A stretch of 64,000 bases of DNA from Schizochytrium sp. TIO01 (Eukaryota; Sar; Bigyra; Thraustochytrida; Thraustochytriidae), in contig SMSO01000035.1 of assembly GCA_004764695.1 (NCBI GenBank), forward strand, positions 3,415,040-3,479,039, given 5' to 3'. The notes beneath the pieces were generated by a model, which was not told the origin of the DNA, ran no database searches, and saw only the letters and a list, made by a program, of their open reading frames with translations. Below are positions 33,002 to 44,822 of this stretch, one piece after another. Both the position numbers and the translations under genes were made by a program. Position 1 is the first letter of the stretch. The number at the start of each line of letters is the position of its first letter.

Positions 33002-34336
33002 CTAGGGCGTCTTCTTCATTTTCCTTGGGCCAACTACAGTGTTTGCTTTCAAGAGCTCTGCAGGCTTGATAGGAGTAAAACTACCGGTACGACGGAGCTC
33101 CTCACGGAAGTATTCAATGGTACGCTGCAAGCCAGTACGAACGTGTACAACGGGCTCCCAGCCCAGCACACGCTTAGCCAATGAAATATCAGGCTTTCGT
33201 CTTGACGGGTCGTCTTTGGTGGCGGGAAGATTGATAATCTTACTGGAGCTTCCAGTCATCTCAACAATCATCTCAGCAAATTGCTTAATTGTGTATTCAT
33301 CAGGGTTGCCAATGTTGACAGGGCCATCGTAATCAGAATTCATGAGTTTGATGAGACCACTGACAAGATCATCGACGTATTGAAAGGAACGTGTCTGCTT
33401 GCCAGAGCCATAAATGGTAATGTCCTTTCCTTGAAGGGCCTGGATGATAAAGTTCGACACAACGCGGCCGTCATCAGGGTGCATTGCAGGGCCAAAGGTA
33501 TTGAAGATGCGAGCCACACGCACATCGACGCCATCTTGCTTATTGTAGGCATACATCATAGTCTCGGCAACACGCTTGCCCTCATCATAACACGCACGCG
33601 GACCTGTGATACTGACGCGACCATGGTACTCCTCATTTTGTGGATGGATTTCAGGATCACCATAAACCTCACTAGTAGACGCAAGCAACACCCTCGCTTT
33701 CGTTCTCTTAGCTAGACCCAACATGTTCAGGGTACCCTCTACAGAGGTCTTAATGGTCTTCACAGGGTTGTATTGATAATGAGGCGGGGATGCAGGGCAA
33801 GCAAGGTTGTAAATCTGGTCAACTTCGATCATGTAAGGGTTGACAACATCGTGATGGATGAGCTCGAAGTTGGGATGGCCAATCCACATTTCAACATTCT
33901 CCTTGCGACCAGTGAAAAAGTTATCCAAGGCATAGACGATATGGCCTTGACGCATGAGTCGATCCACCAGGTGGGAACCCACAAATCCGGCGCCTCCAGT
34001 TACAAGGATGCGCTTCTGCTGCGTGGTGAGTAGAGTTTCCACAGGGGGAAACTGTTTGACAACTCCTGGTTGGGCGTTCATTTGCGAGACGACCTTCTTC
34101 ACCTCGGCGTCAACAAGTGAACGAACATGTTCTTCGAGTGCAGTGTTGCTAGCCACCTCCTTGGCCAGGTTGGAGGCACTCTGACCAAGGTCAGCGCCAG
34201 GTCCAAACCACAAAAGCAAGAACATGCAGGCCAGCATGCCGATCGAGACTTGCGCCCATCCAGGAACACCACCCATTCTCGCAGCAGCGCCAGATCCAAG
34301 CCGCAACCTTTGTCTTCCTGTGGTTGGCAAGACCAT
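33002..34336 (-). CDS. UXS1: UDP-glucuronic acid decarboxylase (UDP-xylose synthase)
   Basis: ATG at 34336-34334, 444 aa. A single membrane helix (about 29-44) and a short coiled stem precede an extended-SDR domain, the type II Golgi/ER layout of animal and plant UXS. Seen: NAD-binding [11 protein letters not shown] (about 112-122), [13 protein letters not shown], the catalytic Thr/Ser-Tyr-Lys set in STSEVYG and YDEGKR (Tyr 250, Lys 254), [20 protein letters not shown] and [10 protein letters not shown]. It converts UDP-GlcA to UDP-Xyl using bound NAD+, supplying xylose (and, via epimerases, arabinose) for glycans. The frame is intact and intronless, about the usual family length. Confidence 0.95.
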
Positions 34337-36547
34337 TACTGCGTAGCAAGGCTACAATTTGTATTATGCAGTGAGATGGACGATAATCTTTCTTTTCTCG
34401 AGTTTAGCTCGACAAAATGCAAGTTTGGAGCTTAAGGAAGCGCTAAGCGCACTCGCTTGAGCGCAGCAAGTTCGGTATTTCCTGTGGAGCCGGCAAGCCA
34501 AACCTGGCAGATCTTGGATCCAGGTGGCTGGCTAGAAGAGCGCCTTATTTGGTGCACACCAAATTTTTTCGCAGCCTTCAGGAGCGCCTACCCAACCTTC
34601 AATGGGTCCTCTCGTCCACACACACTTCCCGGCACAGCCCTTTCGCTGCCCGTGAACTCTAGGTTTTGATCATCGCTTGCTTGCTACAAGCGTTCTTCAT
34701 CTCCTACGGTGCTTAGAACACCTGGAACTCACTAGAACATCTAGAACTTATGAATCATGTACCACATCTAGAACACCTGGACCTCCTCCGCGCTGGGCTC
34801 TCACCCTACTATTTACACTAACCATTCTGCTAGTTCCGCCGGTTCCGTGGCTCGGGCAGGTTCCTGCAGAACAAATTAAGAACGATCCAGGAACTCAGGG
34901 AACGTTCCGAATGTGCGGGAGAATCGAAGGTGCCTGAGTAAGTAAGGAAAGGAAAGGCCTCATTTCGAGACGACCACTCGCGACTAATTCGATCCGGTGA
35001 ATGCACGGAGGCCGAAGAGAGACGGGGGGATAGAGAGTGAGGTGCGGAAGAAGGGAGGCGTCCCATGGCTTTGTGCACATCGGTTGGGACCTGGAGATCC
35101 ATTTGCAAGAGCAGAGAACCTCGCTCACGCTTTGGTCGGCTTCTGACGGGCGCATTCTTGAAGCGCCGAGGCTCGCTCGTGTCACTCTCTCTCCTGCTTA
35201 TAACGCAAAAACCGTTCTTTTGGTTGCAGTATTAACCTGTGAAGCCGCTGGCTCATATGGAACAACACGTACTAATTATAGTGTGTAGACAAGAACTGTA
35301 ATGGAATTTGAGATTGTTATACGGCGAGAGTAAGCAGCGCAGAAACGATCGGCGCGGGGTCCTATACATCGCTTAGGTAGTCCTATGGAGCGAGAGGGCA
35401 ATGGGAAAATAAGGAAATAAATAAATTCTGGAGAAAAAGAGAGAGAGAGAGAGAGAGTCAAAATTTAGTGAACGGATGAGGAAACGAACGATGAACGATC
35501 GTTGAAGGGAGCAAGGAAATGAAGGCCGGCGCTGGAAATACGGGGGGTCGAAGCTTGCAGAGCGCTGTATAGTTGATCCGCAGTAGGATCTCCAAAGACT
35601 GCTTCAATGATGCGATGATGATGATGATGGGAGATCGATAAAATGCGTGTTTTAGAAGGCAATGACCTTTTTTTTATTTTTTTTTTAAAAATAATAATTG
35701 AAATTAAGTCATTTCGGAGGAAGTGAATGCAATGTTATTCATGGCATTCAATACGAATTGAAAAGGGAAAACAGTGTTTCTAAATCAAACACATCTCGTT
35801 CACTTATCTTCTTGAGACTCGAAGTTATTCAAGTCACTATAAACTTGCAAAGTTATAAAGTTAATGCAAAGTTATAAAGTTATTGCAAAGTTTTAAGTTA
35901 TTGCAAAGTTATAAAGTTAATGCAAAGTTATAAAGTTATTGCAAAGTTTTAAGTTATTGCAAAGTCATAAAGTTATTGCAAAGTTATAAAGTTATTGCAA
36001 AGTTATTGTAAAGACGGCGGAAAAGGAGAATGATGGAGCAGAAGAGAACAAAACCCGAAACGAGCACGGAAGACGCCTTCTGCGACGCTGAGGCCTGCGG
36101 AGATTGGGGCAGACGGCCTCCGGGGCAGCGCCAGGTAGGCCGGGGAGTCGAGCACGGAGCCCTCTCCCGTCGTCGCGAGGGCGCGACGGCTGGCTCGGAC
36201 GGACCAGCTACCTGACTGACTGTCCGCAAAGGCTTGCTTGAAGGCTTGCTTGAGCTTGCAAAGAAAGCCTCGTTCACTCAGTACTTGAGGCAGATTTGAC
36301 GAACTCGGGCTTGCAGATTCGGCTTACGCTGGGGGGGACTCTGGCACAGCTGGGTGGAGTAAAAGTGCCTCGGGGTAGGCACATACACGTATTTTGCGGA
36401 GAGGGGCAATAGAGAGTACTTTATTGCAAGGAGAATTGTGCCGTGGTTTGTGCAAAGAGGTAGCCAAAATTAATTTGCTTGCTGGAGCTATCGCAGGTTT
36501 GTGGAACTGAGCGTGCTAGGGAAGCTTGCTTGAAGCTCCTGGGGAAC
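34337..36547. other. Divergent intergenic region between UXS1 and the CHAT-NB-ARC-SH2 gene
   Basis: This holds both promoters. It includes a GA dinucleotide run (35437-35458), a GAT run (about 35614-35628), a T/A tract (35668-35690), a 19-bp AT-rich tandem array (35845-36013), and a possible short first exon of the CHAT gene (36030-36134). Frames on the minus strand at 34.8-35.7 kb have no recognised motifs. Confidence 0.6.
35845..36013 (+). repeat. ~19-bp AT-rich tandem repeat (gcaaagttataaagttatt)
   Basis: About nine units alternate among gcaaagttataaagttaat, gcaaagttataaagttatt and gcaaagttttaagttatt, so adjacent variants recur in a higher-order order. The array ends about 15 bp before the candidate first ATG at 36030. 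Confidence 0.9.
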
Positions 36548-39466
36548 ATGAGCGAGGAGGCCCTTCGTCGGGCAGCGGCCCTGGTGGAAACTATGCGTGT
36601 AGACGATTCTGAGAAGGATGTTGTGGACCACACTTCTGGAGTTGAGGGACCAGAAATGGCTGAACGGATCGAAGAAGATACCAGAAACAGCGATGCGGAT
36701 GCCACGGAATACAATCATGACGGTGATGCCCTGAGCAGTACAAGGAAAATTACTAATGTAGCAGCAGATGTATATAAAGCGGAAACGCTAGACTCCTCAA
36801 GCGAGTCGCGTTCCAGCGACCTGGGCACGCAGCAATTATTTGCCTATCTTTATGCATCACCTTTAACGCAGCACGGTCAAGATGGCAACAGTAAAGAAAC
36901 AGAGGAAGAGGTAGAGGCCCTAAATGTGACAAAAGAGGCCGAAGATCTGTTGAACATGTTTGATGAGGAAGGTAAGGAGCTCAGGTTTCGTGTCGAGGTG
37001 GCAACTAGAGAGTCTTTGAGGCGAACTTTGCAATCTGAGAGTGCAAACTGCTCGGCAGATGTCATTCATTTTACCTGCCACGGACGTCAAGATTTTTTAG
37101 CTCTTGAAGATGGCGCTGGTCAACTCGACGAACTCAACGCTGATGACCTTAAGAATATGCTGAATCGGGATCGCATGCCGGATGTCGTCTTTGTGAGTGC
37201 ATGCTTCTCAGAGTTTATTGGGCACATTTTCGCTGAAGCTGGTGTAAAGCATGTTGTAGCTGTAGTTCGTGAGGTTGCAGACAAGGTCGGGAAGGATTTT
37301 GCTGAGAGGTTCTACAGAGAGCTTATCAACGGCCAAACTGTAAAGTGGGCTTTCGAGGCTGCCTGGATGGACATTGCTATGACCCCAAACCGTGACGCGG
37401 CCTGGGTAGAGCGTCAGCGAGGAAAATTTAAGCTTCTGCCTGAATTTGGTATGGACCATGATGTGCCAGTCTTTGATTCCGAGCGGTTTGGCCGGGTTCG
37501 CGTAGAAACCCCTTTAAAGGCTATTAAATTCTACCCTCGCAATATTGGCAGCTCAATCATCGGCCGGGGAATTGTGGTACAACGTATTGTGCAGGCAATC
37601 GCCCCTCGTGAACTCTGTAAAGCTAATCAAAACCGTCCTCGTTGGATCACAGTTTGCGGTACTGAGGGAATAGGCAAATCTGTGTGTACAATCCTTGCTT
37701 GTAACTATGTCAGTCAGCGGAGGCACTGTAAGGCTATTTATTATATCCATCTTGCTGATCCCAACAATGCGGGGGTATCGCATGGAATCCAAGGCGCTCG
37801 TGCTGCACTTCTTAAAGCTTTTCGTTCTAATTCCATGAATCGAAGTGACCTTAGCACAGCATCATCTGAGGCGGATTTATTCAAGGGACTGAATGAACTC
37901 ACCAAAGACTATGCAGCTTACCCTGGCGACTTGATTGTTGTTCTAGACGGCTGCACGCAATGGGCACGTTGGTCTTCTGTTGCACAACCTGCTTTGGAGT
38001 CTTTCATAAAAGACTTACTCGCAGCTTGTCCTGAGGTTACGGTTTTATGTACAAGTGGTACTGCCATTTCCCCCTCTTGTGCTAGTGTTTGGAGCACTGA
38101 AGCACATGATGAATATGGCTTACCAAGAGAACATACATTAGAGGTCTTGGGGCTGTCGACACGTTACGCAGCACAGCTTCTTCTGCAGAGAACTCAGCGT
38201 CAAATTAAGGGAATCGAACTAGGCGATAGTTTATTTGATAAAAAGACGCTTAAACAAAAGTGCGAAGAGGTACTAGCACATCACCCTGTCATTCACCAGT
38301 GCCGCGGCCACCCATTAGTGATTGGAGCTGTCGCCGAAAAATTGAATCGCTGTAGGTTCAATGACAGTGATGTCGAGGAAACAGCGCGAAGCACCGCGAG
38401 ACGATTTTTCTCCTCTGCTGAGACATCATCTGGTTCAATTGCTAGAACGCATAATATCAATGATCGTTATGGGTCAAATTCAACTCATATGCAAGAGTCA
38501 CTTCATGTTAAGCCTGGTCCTGCTGCACCTGGTCGTCGCGTGCCTCCAGATATTGACCAGAGCCAACAACCACAGCATCATAATCACCAGCACATTCCTT
38601 CCCATCATATTGATCAGCAGAATCAACACCCACACGCACCTTCATCGAACGGGCTCGGGGTGCATGCAAATAATGTAAATCCTCCTTCTAACTTTAGTTC
38701 ATTCTCCAGGTCTCGCGGCAGTGGTCAACAACTCCATGCCAATGGAAGCAATGGTATGCTCGATATGAAGAAGAGGCATGATTCGAGAACAACCATCCCG
38801 TCTTCATATTCTGGCTCTTGTTCGTCAGGTCTTATTGAAGATGATTGGGTGCCGGGGTTCGTTGATGCTGCTTGCACTGAAATCGAAGCTCTTCCAGATG
38901 GGCGAGCCATGGATATGCAATGGGATGCAGTTCTGCAAAGCACCAGATCAGCACTTCACGATATTTTTGATAAGAACCCACAAATGCGGCGCTCTCTTTC
39001 TCAAGACGATTTGTACCGCATGCGTTCGGTCTATGACCGATGCTATAGTACACAAGGCCATATCTCAACTAGAAGAGTTGTCGAGTCCTTCGCAAAATGG
39101 CTTTGTTCTACAGTGAAAACATTACTTGAGAATGCTGAATACTGGAATCACAATATCATTTACGGACTTGTTGCCAAGGAAAAAGTCAACGAGATGCTGC
39201 TTTCCAAGAGCCCGGGAACTTTCATGATTCGTGTCAGTGAATCTGTTCCTGGTAGTCTTGCTGTTGCATATCATATCCACCCTCATGGCTCACCACCTCG
39301 TGTCGTCCACTCTTTAGTTGCAATGGAAAATGGTGGGAAGGTATCACTGGAATTTCGCAATGGACGTAAACACTTCGATTCTCTTCGAGGCTTCTTGATG
39401 GCTCATGCGATTTTTGCAAAGCTCTATCCTGAACAGGATAAACAAACTGTCTTACAAGCCTTGTGA
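36548..39466 (+). CDS. CHAT protease - NB-ARC-like STAND ATPase - STAT-like SH2 fusion
   Basis: ATG at 36548 gives 972 aa; an upstream exon may add about 52 residues. Domains in order: an acidic disordered N-terminus; CHAT (caspase-like) at about 95-285, with the strand LFAYLYASPL, catalytic-type HFTCHG (His about 178) and VVFVSACFSE (Cys about 219); a STAND ATPase at about 330-610, with P-loop GTEGIGKS (371-378), Walker B DLIVVLDG (461-468), VLCTSGT and a GLPL-like CRGHPLVIG (585-593); a disordered linker rich in His, Gln, Asn and Ser (about 640-760); then a helical linker and SH2 at about 765-962. The run FAKWLCSTVKTLL...WNHNIIYGLVAKEKV and PGTFMIRVSES (FLVR-type Arg about 895) follow the STAT linker-SH2 pattern. 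I infer a cytosolic NLR-like receptor or signal protease, with phosphotyrosine binding driving ATPase oligomerisation and CHAT activation. No LRR, TPR or WD repeats are present. Substrate is unknown. Confidence 0.8.
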   Translation: MSEEALRRAAALVETMRVDDSEKDVVDHTSGVEGPEMAERIEEDTRNSDADATEYNHDGDALSSTRKITNVAADVYKAETLDSSSESRSSDLGTQQLFAYLYASPLTQHGQDGNSKETEEEVEALNVTKEAEDLLNMFDEEGKELRFRVEVATRESLRRTLQSESANCSADVIHFTCHGRQDFLALEDGAGQLDELNADDLKNMLNRDRMPDVVFVSACFSEFIGHIFAEAGVKHVVAVVREVADKVGKDFAERFYRELINGQTVKWAFEAAWMDIAMTPNRDAAWVERQRGKFKLLPEFGMDHDVPVFDSERFGRVRVETPLKAIKFYPRNIGSSIIGRGIVVQRIVQAIAPRELCKANQNRPRWITVCGTEGIGKSVCTILACNYVSQRRHCKAIYYIHLADPNNAGVSHGIQGARAALLKAFRSNSMNRSDLSTASSEADLFKGLNELTKDYAAYPGDLIVVLDGCTQWARWSSVAQPALESFIKDLLAACPEVTVLCTSGTAISPSCASVWSTEAHDEYGLPREHTLEVLGLSTRYAAQLLLQRTQRQIKGIELGDSLFDKKTLKQKCEEVLAHHPVIHQCRGHPLVIGAVAEKLNRCRFNDSDVEETARSTARRFFSSAETSSGSIARTHNINDRYGSNSTHMQESLHVKPGPAAPGRRVPPDIDQSQQPQHHNHQHIPSHHIDQQNQHPHAPSSNGLGVHANNVNPPSNFSSFSRSRGSGQQLHANGSNGMLDMKKRHDSRTTIPSSYSGSCSSGLIEDDWVPGFVDAACTEIEALPDGRAMDMQWDAVLQSTRSALHDIFDKNPQMRRSLSQDDLYRMRSVYDRCYSTQGHISTRRVVESFAKWLCSTVKTLLENAEYWNHNIIYGLVAKEKVNEMLLSKSPGTFMIRVSESVPGSLAVAYHIHPHGSPPRVVHSLVAMENGGKVSLEFRNGRKHFDSLRGFLMAHAIFAKLYPEQDKQTVLQAL

Positions 39467-40693: not shown

Positions 40694-43600
40694 TTAGATG
40701 CGCCGGCGCTTGGAAGCGCTGGTAGGCTGCTTTTTACTTTTCGAGGAACCAAGGGCCTCCTGGGTGAATGTTGATTGCCTATTCAGTTTAGGTGTAAGAA
40801 CTGGCGCCTTGTTGAACGCCGACATGAGAGACTGAGGGCCTTCAGATGTGCGCGATTTCGTGGAGTCCGCTCTTGCGATAGCAAAGGGGTTGCGCTTACG
40901 ATTTGGTGAGGTCTTGGTAGGTGTGGACGCGCCTTTGCCAATTACATCATCATCATCATCATCAATGCTTTCAGATCCCGACTCCGCGGCAAGAACCTCC
41001 CGAAGATTTTTCTTCTTATTGTAAGACTGTCCCGCCTCACTTTGCACATCCTCCTCACTATCGCTGGGCTCATTAATAGAGAGAGATTGCAGACTTGTTG
41101 AAGGGGACTTAGCGGTAAGACGCTTCCGCATCTTATTCGACCCAAGAGATTGTTGGCGACGAGGCACTTCCTCCTCCATTTCGCTTTCACCATCACTCTC
41201 ATCGCTGCTTTCATCATCTTCATCATCATCTTCAGCCTCACGGAGAGCCTCACGAATGGCAATTAGATTCTCAATGCGCTGCAACAGCATGAAATCCGCA
41301 CCCGCCTGCTGAGCCTGCTGGTGGGCAATTTGAAGAGATCGTTCCAGGCGAAGACGTTTGACCAAACCGAAGGCTCTGGCGCTCCTGTTAAGCTTGATTG
41401 CAAGAATGAGATGTTTGAGTACCTTGGCATCAAGTTGGGCTTCCTCTTCGGCGAGTTTCTGGTCTGTGAGACGAAATTCAGCTGCATCCGGGTCATTAGC
41501 TGCTACCTCCTTGGCTACCCATTGGACCTGATTGAGCACAAGGTGGGAACGAACGGAATTCTCTTCGAGCTTGTACTTAAGACTACCTGTAGCCATTTTA
41601 AGACCAGCAACGGGCACACACAACTCGTATGAGCTCAGAACAGGTCGAGGGTAAGTTTCAGGAAAACCAAGGTGTTTGCCCTTGCCCTTAAGCACAATTG
41701 CGTTGAGCTTGCCAAGCTGGATACTCACAGGCCACACAACATCATGTTTAGAGCGTCGCAACGAGTTCTCAGAGAGAACCGGTACCCAGTTCCAACCCAT
41801 TGCCTTGGAAAGTACCATGAATGTACCCTTGGAGTCAAGGCATGCAGGCATGTAACCCATTGTCTTATCGGTCATTCCAAGCCATTTCAGTGGCTTTTCC
41901 TCGCCATGCGGCATCGGGAACTGACCGGAAGCAATCATGCCTTGGATTCCACCACCACGAGTTCCTTCCATGCCAACGTTGATAAGTTGATAGCTAAGCT
42001 GCTGAGTACCGTCTGCACTAGGAGCACCAGTGTGGCATACAACAAGAAGAAAAACTCCAGCACCAACCATACTGAGAACAGGTCCAGGAAGTCGAAGAGG
42101 GGCTTCTTGGAGGCCGCTTGGACGGAAAATTCGCAAGGTTCGCTGGTTGGTTGCCACCGCAGCAAATGATGCGCCAGCCGCAACAGCACGGACCTTCTCG
42201 CTTGAAGGCAACTTGGCGGTCCAGTCAGAATTGTTCGAACGAGAATCGAATGACTTGTAGAAAACAGTTGACCCAGCACCGAAACGAGCCTCGAGGCGAT
42301 CCTCAAGTGTTTCAGCCTTGGATGAGGAATTGCCAAGAAGTTGATCTGGGTTGACGCCTGCAGCATCAGCTTGGTCAGCGATGTCCATGTATGCACGGAG
42401 CACACCGTTTTCATTCTGGTTAGCACGAATTTCATCAGCAAGGCCATCTTCAGGAAGTTCCGGGGTCCAGTCTGTATCTTTAGCGCTTTTTTGGTCGACT
42501 GAGCTGGCACCAAAGCCAGAGGAATCACCAAGCTGACCGGGTGTCGCGAAGATAGCTCCAGAGGCGCCCAAAGCTGCCATAGTGAAGCCATAGTGATCCG
42601 AGAAGCGAACCCGTCGGTGGTCTACTGAGTTTGCAAAATCAATCTCAACAGAATTATGGGTATCCTCTGAGCGGAATGTGATACTTCCAATTGAGTTCCA
42701 GGCCAAAAAACGACGTTCTTCAGTCTCAGGCGTAGCACCAGGCATAAGAACTGGCTGGCGCTGCGGCTGGCGAGGGAGGAGCTGATCAAGCGAAGATTTG
42801 ATCTGGCCTTCAAGTTCATCATACTTGACAAAAACTCCACGACTGGCGGTACTAGAATCAAATCCCGTAGTTTGGTTTCGATCAAGATCATCATCATCAT
42901 TCATGTCGAGTTCATCCCCCATGTCATCAACATCACCGACACTGTCGCCTTCACGGTCGTTTTCTTCGTTATCTTCCCTCATGAGACCATGATCCTTTCG
43001 GATTTGAGAGATTGAGTTCTTTGGATCATCGTCATCGTCATCAAGCTCCTCAAGATCCATATCGTTATTGATAACGCCCTTCTTTTGCGCTGCTTCGCCC
43101 GATTTTGGCAAACTAGGCGTCTGCTTCTCAGCTACAACCTCGAGGGCATTGCCAATTTCGGAGGGGACGACACGGGCATACCAGTGCACATTTCCATCCA
43201 TGGAGAGAGCGAGAACACCATGACGTTTCTTTGGCCATGAGAGAACCTGGATACTGCTGTGCCTGTCGCTTACACTGCCGTCTGCGGTTTCAAGAATACG
43301 CGAATCTTTAGACTGTACGTTGATCAAGGCAAGGTCACCCTGTGTGTCTGCATATACAATATATTTGTCGTTGGGAGACCAAGCCAAAGCTTGCACCTGG
43401 TGATCCTTAGCTTCTGAGGTATGAGCTGTGCGTTGAATCTTGGTCCAGGATCCAGAAGAAATTAGTTCCGCACCTGCAAGGCCGGCCACGGCCAGAGTCT
43501 TGCCAGATCGGCTCCAGGCAAGCTGCACAGGCTTGGATTTCGCGGGGTCCTCTTCAGTGTCTGCTAGAGCGAGGCGGTCAAACTTTTTCACAAGTTTGTT

Positions 43601-44822
43601 CTCAGCAAAGGCCCAAACAATAACCTGCCCATTTGTGGCAACTGAAGCCAGGAAGTCGCCTTCAGGGGACCATGCAAGGCTTTTGATTGCTGCGGAGTGG
43701 CCCTTAAGCTCCTTTACCTCCTGGGATGCCAGGTTCATTAGACGCACAATGTTCTCATCTGTGCCAATTGCAAGAGTTTGCCCGTTTGGGCTAAACGCAA
43801 CGGCGCGGACAGGACCAGGGGCACGGTACAGAAGCTTTGAGATGCGGCCTAATGATTTGGAGTCGCGGTCGCTGGGGATGGTGATCAGATTGACATGACC
43901 GCCCGATCCACCGCAAGCTGCTTGGGTGCTTTTGACCGGATGAGCATCTACGCAGAGCACATTATCGATGTCGCCGATATCCTTGAGGACCTCGCGAGTG
44001 TTTACATCAAGAAGACGAATGCCCAGAGATCCAGCAGCAAAAGGCCAACTCTGCGTCTGCATTAACTGCGAGTCCAGAGCGTCCAGGTGGAAGGACTACA
44101 CGTGAGACATGGGCAGGCATCTTGTCCGAACCAAGGCTGAAGATGGTTTTGGGGATGTCCTGAGTAGGCGCATCCCCAGTATCAAGAATATCAGGAAACT
44201 TCTCCATTTGTGAAGGAGATTGCGATTTGGGGCTATGCTGAGCACTGTCTGCGCCGTCGTTATCGTTTTGGCTTTGAGACATTTCAAGGTTGTCCGCCGC
44301 GAAGTCATCGTCCATATCAAGCAATTCCCCGTCATCCTCTTCGTCATTACTCTTTCCACTGGAAACTTTCCGATCGTGCTCCTTGCTAGCAGGTTGAACG
44401 ATAACTTTACCACCCTTGGACATTGACTTTTGCGAGGATTCAACCTTGTCATCGTCATTGTCCTCGATATCTGAGTCTTCCAATTGACTTTGGGACCCCA
44501 TGACCTCTTGCGTGGGCTGCATAGATGGATCCTCAAGGTCCATGGATGTCATACTCTGCTGTGTTTCTGCGACCATCGAGGCCTGTACTGCTCTCGACGT
44601 GCTAGATTCCTCAATCTGTTTCTCGGTCTCCTGCTTCTCAGTCTCCTCCATGGTTAATTGCTGGACCTCTGTGGCGGCGTTGGAACTCCGAATGTTACTG
44701 TTAATGTTCTTGTTTCCATCAACTGTCTTCCCGTTATCAATGTCGTCGTGGTCCATCGTATCCACAGACCCGACAGAACTAAGGTCGTCGTCCAAGAGGT
44801 TGCCCTCTTTGCCACCGGCCAT
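40694..44822 (-). CDS. WDHD1: Ctf4/AND-1 (WDHD1) replisome adaptor, frame broken by one base
   Basis: The ATG at 44822-44820 has a textbook ACCATGG context. A first frame (about 260 residues, acidic, Ser/Gln-rich) ends in SGLAVNADAELAF. A second frame (to 40694) continues AAGSLGIRLLDVNTREVLKD, the opening WD-type strand. One extra base in the A4 run at 44039-44042 separates them. Then come seven or so WD40-like repeats (AVAFSPNGQTLAIGT, LAWSPEGDFLAS), an acidic linker, the SepB/Ctf4 beta-propeller (SEKVRAVAAG..FAAVAT, GWNWVPVL) with its helical bundle, and a low-complexity basic tail (KRNPFAIARAD, ending KRRRI). Ctf4 trimers link CMG helicase to DNA polymerase alpha and other clients. The acidic N-terminal extension before the WD domain is unusual. 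The break is likely a sequence error, because both sides are intact. Confidence 0.85.

Follow-up and report, generated by a model that had tools for sequence, protein, structure and literature searches.

A predicted CHAT-STAND protein with a STAT-type SH2 domain, and a paralogue without the protease dyad, in the thraustochytrid Schizochytrium sp. TIO01

Animals keep phosphotyrosine-SH2 signalling and the activation of caspases in two distinct modules, which adaptors connect. Some of the fungal NLR sensors that control gasdermins carry a CHAT domain, and a gasdermin is activated by a TPR-bearing CHAT protease (PMC12881547, in the portion cited here). The NCOA6-clade TRADD-N proteins of Amphimedon, which belong to the death superfamily, have a variable C-terminus that can be an SH2 domain (PMC8195603, likewise in part). 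Here we describe a gene from a stretch of 64,000 nucleotides of Schizochytrium sp. TIO01 (contig SMSO01000035.1, positions 3,415,040 to 3,479,039 of the forward strand; the window) whose predicted product joins a CHAT caspase-like protease domain, a STAND-type ATPase and a STAT-type linker-SH2 region. A phosphotyrosine reader, an ATP switch and a protease apparently lie in one chain, and a second gene of the same 64-Mb genome (37 contigs), the paralogue C24, encodes a similar protein with a dead-looking protease.

The fungal systems and the window protein are alike in having CHAT as the signalling module of an NLR or repeat sensor, whereas the partner domains named in the cited portion of PMC12881547 are WD40, TPR, ANK or kinase-like and not SH2. 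The Amphimedon proteins have N-terminal Death-like domains and TRADD-N, and the CHAT-STAND-SH2 order is not described in the cited part of PMC8195603. STATs, of which the nearest solved representative is Dictyostelium STATa (1uur), share the SH2 domain with its FLVR-type Arg and, probably, the linker region before it; in contrast, the window protein has CHAT-STAND before the SH2 domain. Neither the window protein nor C24 has a Pfam match to the STAT coiled-coil or DNA-binding domains, and by sequence neither belongs to the STAT transcription factors. A search of open-access full text, with subscription papers mostly outside its scope, returned no paper with both 'CHAT domain' and 'SH2' and none joining SH2, thraustochytrid and STAT. 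Eukaryote sequence databases lay outside the novelty search, and proteins of this architecture may be present in them with automatically assigned names.

The features of the window protein are the following (window coordinates, strand, residue numbers in brackets).

36548..39466, +, the whole protein in one open frame of 972 amino acids: CHAT, STAND NTPase, His/Gln-rich linker, STAT-type linker-SH2.
36836..37480, +, CHAT caspase-like protease domain (about 97-311), from PF12770 and alignment with the paralogues C33 and C32.
37079..37081, +, putative catalytic His178 in the motif HFTCHG (174-179), invariant in the three-sequence CHAT alignment.
37202..37204, +, putative catalytic Cys219 in the motif VSAC (216-219), invariant in the same alignment.
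37520..38347, +, STAND-type P-loop NTPase (about 325-600), from NPHP3_N, AAA_16 and NB-ARC matches below cut-off and colinearity with a bacterial CHAT-STAND-TPR protein.
37658..37681, +, Walker A motif GTEGIGKS (371-378), its GxGK core invariant in four paralogues.
37937..37954, +, Walker B-like motif VVLDGC (464-469), from alignment with the bacterial protein.
38300..38317, +, GxP-type motif CRGHPL (GHP at 587-589), aligned with GNP of C33, C32 and bacterial proteins.
38420..38839, +, low-complexity linker rich in Ser, His and Gln by eye (625-764), its frame open and its codon score positive.
38915..39145, +, STAT linker-like region (about 790-866), where a two-sequence profile aligns with the pre-SH2 region of STATa and STAT5A.
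39146..39427, +, SH2 domain (about 867-960; Pfam match 872-946), from PF00017 and the STATa match.
39230..39232, +, FLVR-type Arg895 in the motif FMIRVSES (892-899), identical in the C24 SH2 domain and aligned with Arg in STATa and STAT5A.

The CHAT model (PF12770) matched residues 126-283 at 6.7e-16, with 59 bits against a cut-off of 24, and the domain is 30 and 32% identical to those of C33 and C32, two further CHAT-STAND genes of the genome. We take His178 and Cys219 to be the catalytic residues, as in other CHAT domains. The positions around them are also conserved among the three proteins, and since the dyad and its surroundings are kept, retained catalysis can be argued for the window protein. 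Based on the domain match and the His/Cys dyad, it is a predicted member of the CHAT protease class. The initial annotation, made from the letters of the window, had called both a CHAT and an SH2 domain; profile searches recovered both above their Pfam cut-offs, and HFTCHG, VSAC, GTEGIGKS, the Walker B-like and GxP motifs and FMIRVSES all lie where it had placed them.

A scan of prokaryotes with the CHAT alignment gave one confirmed locus among 111 candidate stretches, a protein of 1046 amino acids in a metagenome-assembled genome (MAG) of the Anaerolineae (L067:3695-6832, +) with the order EAD7-CHAT-STAND-TPR. This protein exceeds the Pfam cut-offs for NACHT, nSTAND1 and NB-ARC and contains the motifs HYSGHG, VSAC, GAPGIGKS and GNP. 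In a BLASTP comparison against a database of five proteins it aligned with the window protein at 29.5% over 518 amino acids, colinear through CHAT-STAND, with C32 at 30.9% over 540 and with C33 at 32.1% over 333; the values for a further CHAT gene, C5, and for C24 were 28.3% over 99 and 24.7% over 162, the latter with an E value of only 0.003. The bacterial protein is therefore like the window protein in its colinear CHAT-STAND core and differs in its N-terminal EAD7 and C-terminal TPRs, neither of which the window protein matches, and in place of which it carries the linker-SH2. Because TPRs fill that position in the colinear bacterial protein, the window SH2 domain appears to stand in the place of a sensor, so that the alignment with the one bacterial protein found bears out what had been proposed from the domain order.

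Within the ATPase of the window protein the Walker A, Walker B-like and GxP motifs occur in the expected order, aligned with those of the bacterial protein, and a GxP motif is a mark of STAND NTPases. The NB-ARC model reached 15.2 bits against a cut-off of 23.5 and covered residues 565-600 only, for which reason the domain is not filed as NB-ARC; judged by its motifs it is better called STAND. The P-loop, Walker B and GxP of the 'NB-ARC-like ATPase' first proposed have thus stood, together with the bacterial colinearity, and its family name has given way. No LRR, TPR, WD or ANK repeat family matched the window protein, at E values up to 10 for the whole protein and up to 1 for its C-terminal part. 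With an N-terminal effector and a STAND ATPase, but a linker-SH2 for repeats, the predicted protein is NLR-like and not a canonical NLR.

The SH2 model (PF00017) matched the window protein at 6.9e-5 (23.3 bits, cut-off 21), and a search of PDB sequences with the whole protein returned Dictyostelium STATa at 4e-8, followed by chains of STAT6 and STAT5 near 1e-4. When a linker-SH2 profile of two sequences, the window protein and C24, was searched against PDB sequences, Dictyostelium STATa was found at 1.5e-9 and STAT5A at 1.2e-7, and the first 11 rows were all STATs (among the best 60 of 143 matches). The alignment of this profile to STATa and STAT5A begins well upstream of the SH2 domain, in the STAT linker region. 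Arg895, which we take to be the residue of the phosphotyrosine pocket, is common to the window and C24 SH2 domains, as are Ser897 and Glu898, and Lys877 of the window protein lies at what is presumably the alphaA2 position. By its match, its FLVR-type Arg and its nearness to STATs, the window SH2 domain is predicted to be of the STAT type.

The SH2 model matched at least five times in the genome: twice in one tandem protein and once each in Spt6, the window protein and the C24 frame. C24 is a single frame of 936 amino acids with the order CHAT-STAND-SH2 of the window protein and without the long spacer. Pfam gave AAA_16 at 2.8e-11 and SH2 at 7.8e-6 in C24, with AAA_16 and AAA_22 over cut-off; AAA_16 was found at 17 places in the genome, C24 among them, and the PADLOC and NCBIfam matches to C24 were weak and mostly to the P-loop. 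BLASTP aligned the window protein with C24 over the linker-SH2 (2e-6) and over a CHAT/P-loop stretch (4e-4). Pfam listed no CHAT domain for C24, but a profile built from the other three CHAT domains scored 26.6 bits against it, the best of 2000 shuffled decoys scoring 7.3, and hhalign gave 95.5%. The C24 CHAT domain is recognisable but degenerate, with IGSG at the His site and SAQ at the Cys site, so that both residues are lost. Two genes of this genome are thus predicted to share the architecture, and the protease dyad is kept in one and missing from the other; the C24 protease is apparently dead, and C24 is perhaps a regulator of the window protein.

The other CHAT genes have other partners. 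C33 (L013:319-5169, -) is a frame of 1617 amino acids with CHAT-STAND at its C-terminus, and its N-terminal region has a signal-like hydrophobic start, PAASP-type repeats and one hydrophobic segment near residue 862. Its EGF-type matches are all below cut-off (best 0.00011). By this layout C33 resembles a membrane receptor whose output would be caspase-like. PADLOC gave no match to C33 and NCBIfam one weak match. C32 (L014:264-9500 and L015:3-5951, -), a frame of 5063 amino acids in two pieces, also ends in CHAT-STAND and has a SPRY domain (1.2e-13) and LRR-like repeats seen by eye, without a Pfam match. Its CHAT domain scored 36.4 bits in the genome search and has both motifs in the alignment, and Pfam did not list CHAT on the long piece. 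C5 (L065:241-2934, -) has a weak CHAT match (0.00011), which stays below cut-off; a long insertion separates the His half from the Cys half, and the protein ends in a polyQ/QH tail. A CHAT match in C3 proved to be separase, the C50 domain of which matches the CHAT model, and was removed from the CHAT-STAND set. C36 (L058:1-2343, -) encodes a further, distinct protein in which the NB-ARC model exceeds its cut-off (1.7e-7); neither CHAT nor SH2 matched in the 781 amino acids covered.

Classical protein tyrosine phosphatase (PTP) domains matched four times in the genome, twice strongly (1e-62 and 1.3e-36). Kinase matches (PF07714) numbered at least 146; in 19 of the 30 loci examined a script located the HRD motif, and two of these 19 have tyrosine-kinase-like loops, HRDIASRN or HRDIAARN with the P+1 loops IKWMAPE or LRWAAPE. 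Loops of the forms HRDIA(S/A)RN and (I/L)(K/R)W.APE mark tyrosine kinases. One of the two is an ankyrin-kinase with a SAM match below cut-off, and the other has a Drf_GBD match just below cut-off and a weak SAM match. Given two strong PTP matches and two candidate kinases, phosphotyrosine signalling is plausible in this genome. Dictyostelium is said to be without bona fide tyrosine kinases, and TKL kinases feed its STATs (PMC3934975, PMC4758236, both in part); for STATc the kinase is the TKL enzyme Pyk2, and PTP3 acts as an inhibitor (PMC3934975). The tandem-SH2 protein C31 (L017:2436-4376, -; a frame of 647 amino acids) has a tail rich in Tyr by eye and is a possible phosphotyrosine partner; it was considered as a STAT and set aside, as Pfam finds no STAT core domain in it. 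A kinase-family match at C13:877408-878292 (-) lies inside a frame that stays open for 23,480 codons.

The architecture of the window protein is well supported, and from it we infer, as the initial annotation did, that phosphotyrosine may be coupled to proteolysis in an immune or cell-death device. Specifically, the window protein would be a cytosolic, phosphotyrosine-gated STAND protease, a reading to which we give an even chance. At rest, the STAND ATPase would keep the N-terminal CHAT caspase-like domain inactive. A kinase would phosphorylate a tyrosine of a partner, and the C-terminal STAT-type linker-SH2 would bind the phosphotyrosine; this binding would recruit and concentrate the protein, and the ATPase would change its nucleotide state and oligomerise. 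The CHAT domains, brought together, would then cut a substrate, which may itself be an executioner in cell death or immunity. C24 may co-assemble or compete with the window protein and so tune its output, much as cFLIP tunes caspase-8. The proposed outcome leans on fungi, in which CHAT is found in some of the NLR sensors controlling gasdermins (PMC12881547, in the cited portion).

Somewhat tentatively, and with confidence just short of even, we propose that in this lineage a CHAT-STAND death or immune module of bacterial type was rewired to take a STAT-type SH2 domain as its sensor and exists as a regulated pair of active protease and pseudo-protease, beside receptor-like and SPRY-bearing sister genes. 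An ancient protease of cell death or immunity may then be set off directly by tyrosine phosphorylation. If so, the window protein would connect tyrosine phosphorylation directly, and within a single chain, with a caspase-like effector in an organism that is not an animal, and a signalling reader would be able to replace ligand-binding repeats in the sensor slot of a CHAT-STAND protein. The protein would also be a simple model in which to study the activation of STAND proteases, and would be relevant to the question of how conflict systems of bacterial type became part of eukaryotic signalling.

Several observations weigh against this reading. The window ATPase exceeds no Pfam cut-off, NPHP3_N, AAA_16 and NB-ARC all lying below, and a profile of four ATPase sequences found no STAND structure in the PDB at a convincing E value; its best rows, Hsp104/ClpB-type and unrelated chains with partial matches at E values of 0.001-0.003, were not used for classification. 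The evidence for the STAT linker is weaker than that for the SH2 domain: the Pfam STAT_linker model (PF21354) gave 0.064 in C24 and no match in the window protein, significant in neither, and a further search of the two proteins for it was not significant, with no control ringing either. In C24 a GxP motif is not clear from the alignment and the Walker B site has LEN, and similarity to the window protein is low (19-27% by region). The window SH2 domain scores 34.7 bits with Dictyostelium STATa in phmmer and 38.1 bits with C24 in BLASTP, about the same, although two different programs are compared. In the best tree of five CHAT-STAND cores, from which and from whose alignments the CHAT domain of C5 was excluded for want of an ATPase match, the SH2-bearing cores do not pair, C24 being placed with C33 (support 87.5/67). 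Of the three topologies pairing the SH2-bearing cores, two were not rejected (approximately unbiased test, p of 0.48 and 0.23) and one was (0.044), so the tree is compatible with one as with two origins of the SH2 fusion. A search of the genome for the gasdermin family gave no match, and no control rang either, which makes it uninformative; the eukaryotic scope of the analysis is one genome.

The SH2 domain may instead be a device of assembly or autoinhibition that binds a phosphotyrosine of its own or of a second copy, in the manner of a STAT dimer or a Src-like clamp, with the trigger elsewhere (nucleotide state, cleavage or a ligand); we regard this as unlikely, though a serious contender. 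A STAT dimer is formed by the SH2 domain, and tyrosines Y641, Y754 and Y960 of the window protein lie in or near regions that are likely flexible. In STATs, dimerisation follows once a tyrosine close to the C-terminus is phosphorylated (PMC3934975, in part). The window SH2 domain, on the other hand, occupies the TPR region of the bacterial relative.

Of similar standing, and likewise improbable to us by a clear measure, is a regulated protease that, much as separase does, serves housekeeping or development and has no death or immune role. The presence of separase itself, matching the CHAT model, is in keeping with this, as are the number of PF12770 matches in the genome (at least four, with no large expansion seen) and the place of the window gene, which is flanked by a sugar-nucleotide epimerase-family gene on one side and a WDHD1/Ctf4-like gene on the other. 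Conflict-type systems are suggested instead by the STAND fusion and by the bacterial relative with its EAD7-CHAT-STAND-TPR order (for EADs, PMC8195603, in part). It is less probable still that the window protein is a scaffold or regulator recruited by phosphotyrosine in which CHAT and ATPase are no longer protease or switch. C24 keeps the SH2 domain and P-loop without the CHAT His and Cys, so that a protease-free role seems to exist, but the window protein retains His, Cys and the neighbouring conserved positions, which speaks for catalysis being kept.

The frame of the window protein is open from 36464, its first ATG is at 36548 (context AACATGA), and its stop codon is 39464-39466. Codon-usage log-odds were trained on nine other long open reading frames, seven from other loci of the genome (including C33 and C32) and two from window neighbours. 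In 300-base segments starting between ATG and stop, the last two of which extend past the stop, the frame was the best of six in 18 of 20 and scored positive throughout from ATG to stop. In the remaining two (38348 and 38498), within or beside the His-rich linker, a minus-strand frame was slightly higher, at 0.14 and 0.18 against 0.12 and 0.11. The chance that a 125-codon linker of this composition has no stops is about 0.003 by formula, and 18 of 10000 shuffles had none. The fusion is not a chance frame, because C24 has the same domain order in one frame, and this paralogue is stronger evidence for a single gene than the open linker or the codon score; the reading of one fused gene, first made from the open frame, is upheld. 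That two adjacent genes, a CHAT-STAND and an SH2 gene, are only seemingly fused is very improbable, since the low complexity of the spacer, the two minus-strand segments and the CHAT-STAND genes without SH2 in the same genome are set against the single frame of C24 without a long spacer, the small chance of an open spacer and the uniformly positive codon score.

The window protein had no match in viral contigs, PADLOC or NCBIfam. Its neighbours, the sugar-nucleotide epimerase-family gene at 33005-34351 (-) and the WDHD1/Ctf4-like gene at 40697-44095 (-), do not bear on the CHAT-STAND-SH2 finding. By its gene content, with Spt6, separase, classical PTPs and the WDHD1/Ctf4-like gene, the genome is that of a eukaryote. 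A tandem array of a 19-base AT-rich unit in 8.6 copies occupies 35845-36006 of the window, about 540 bases upstream of the ATG.

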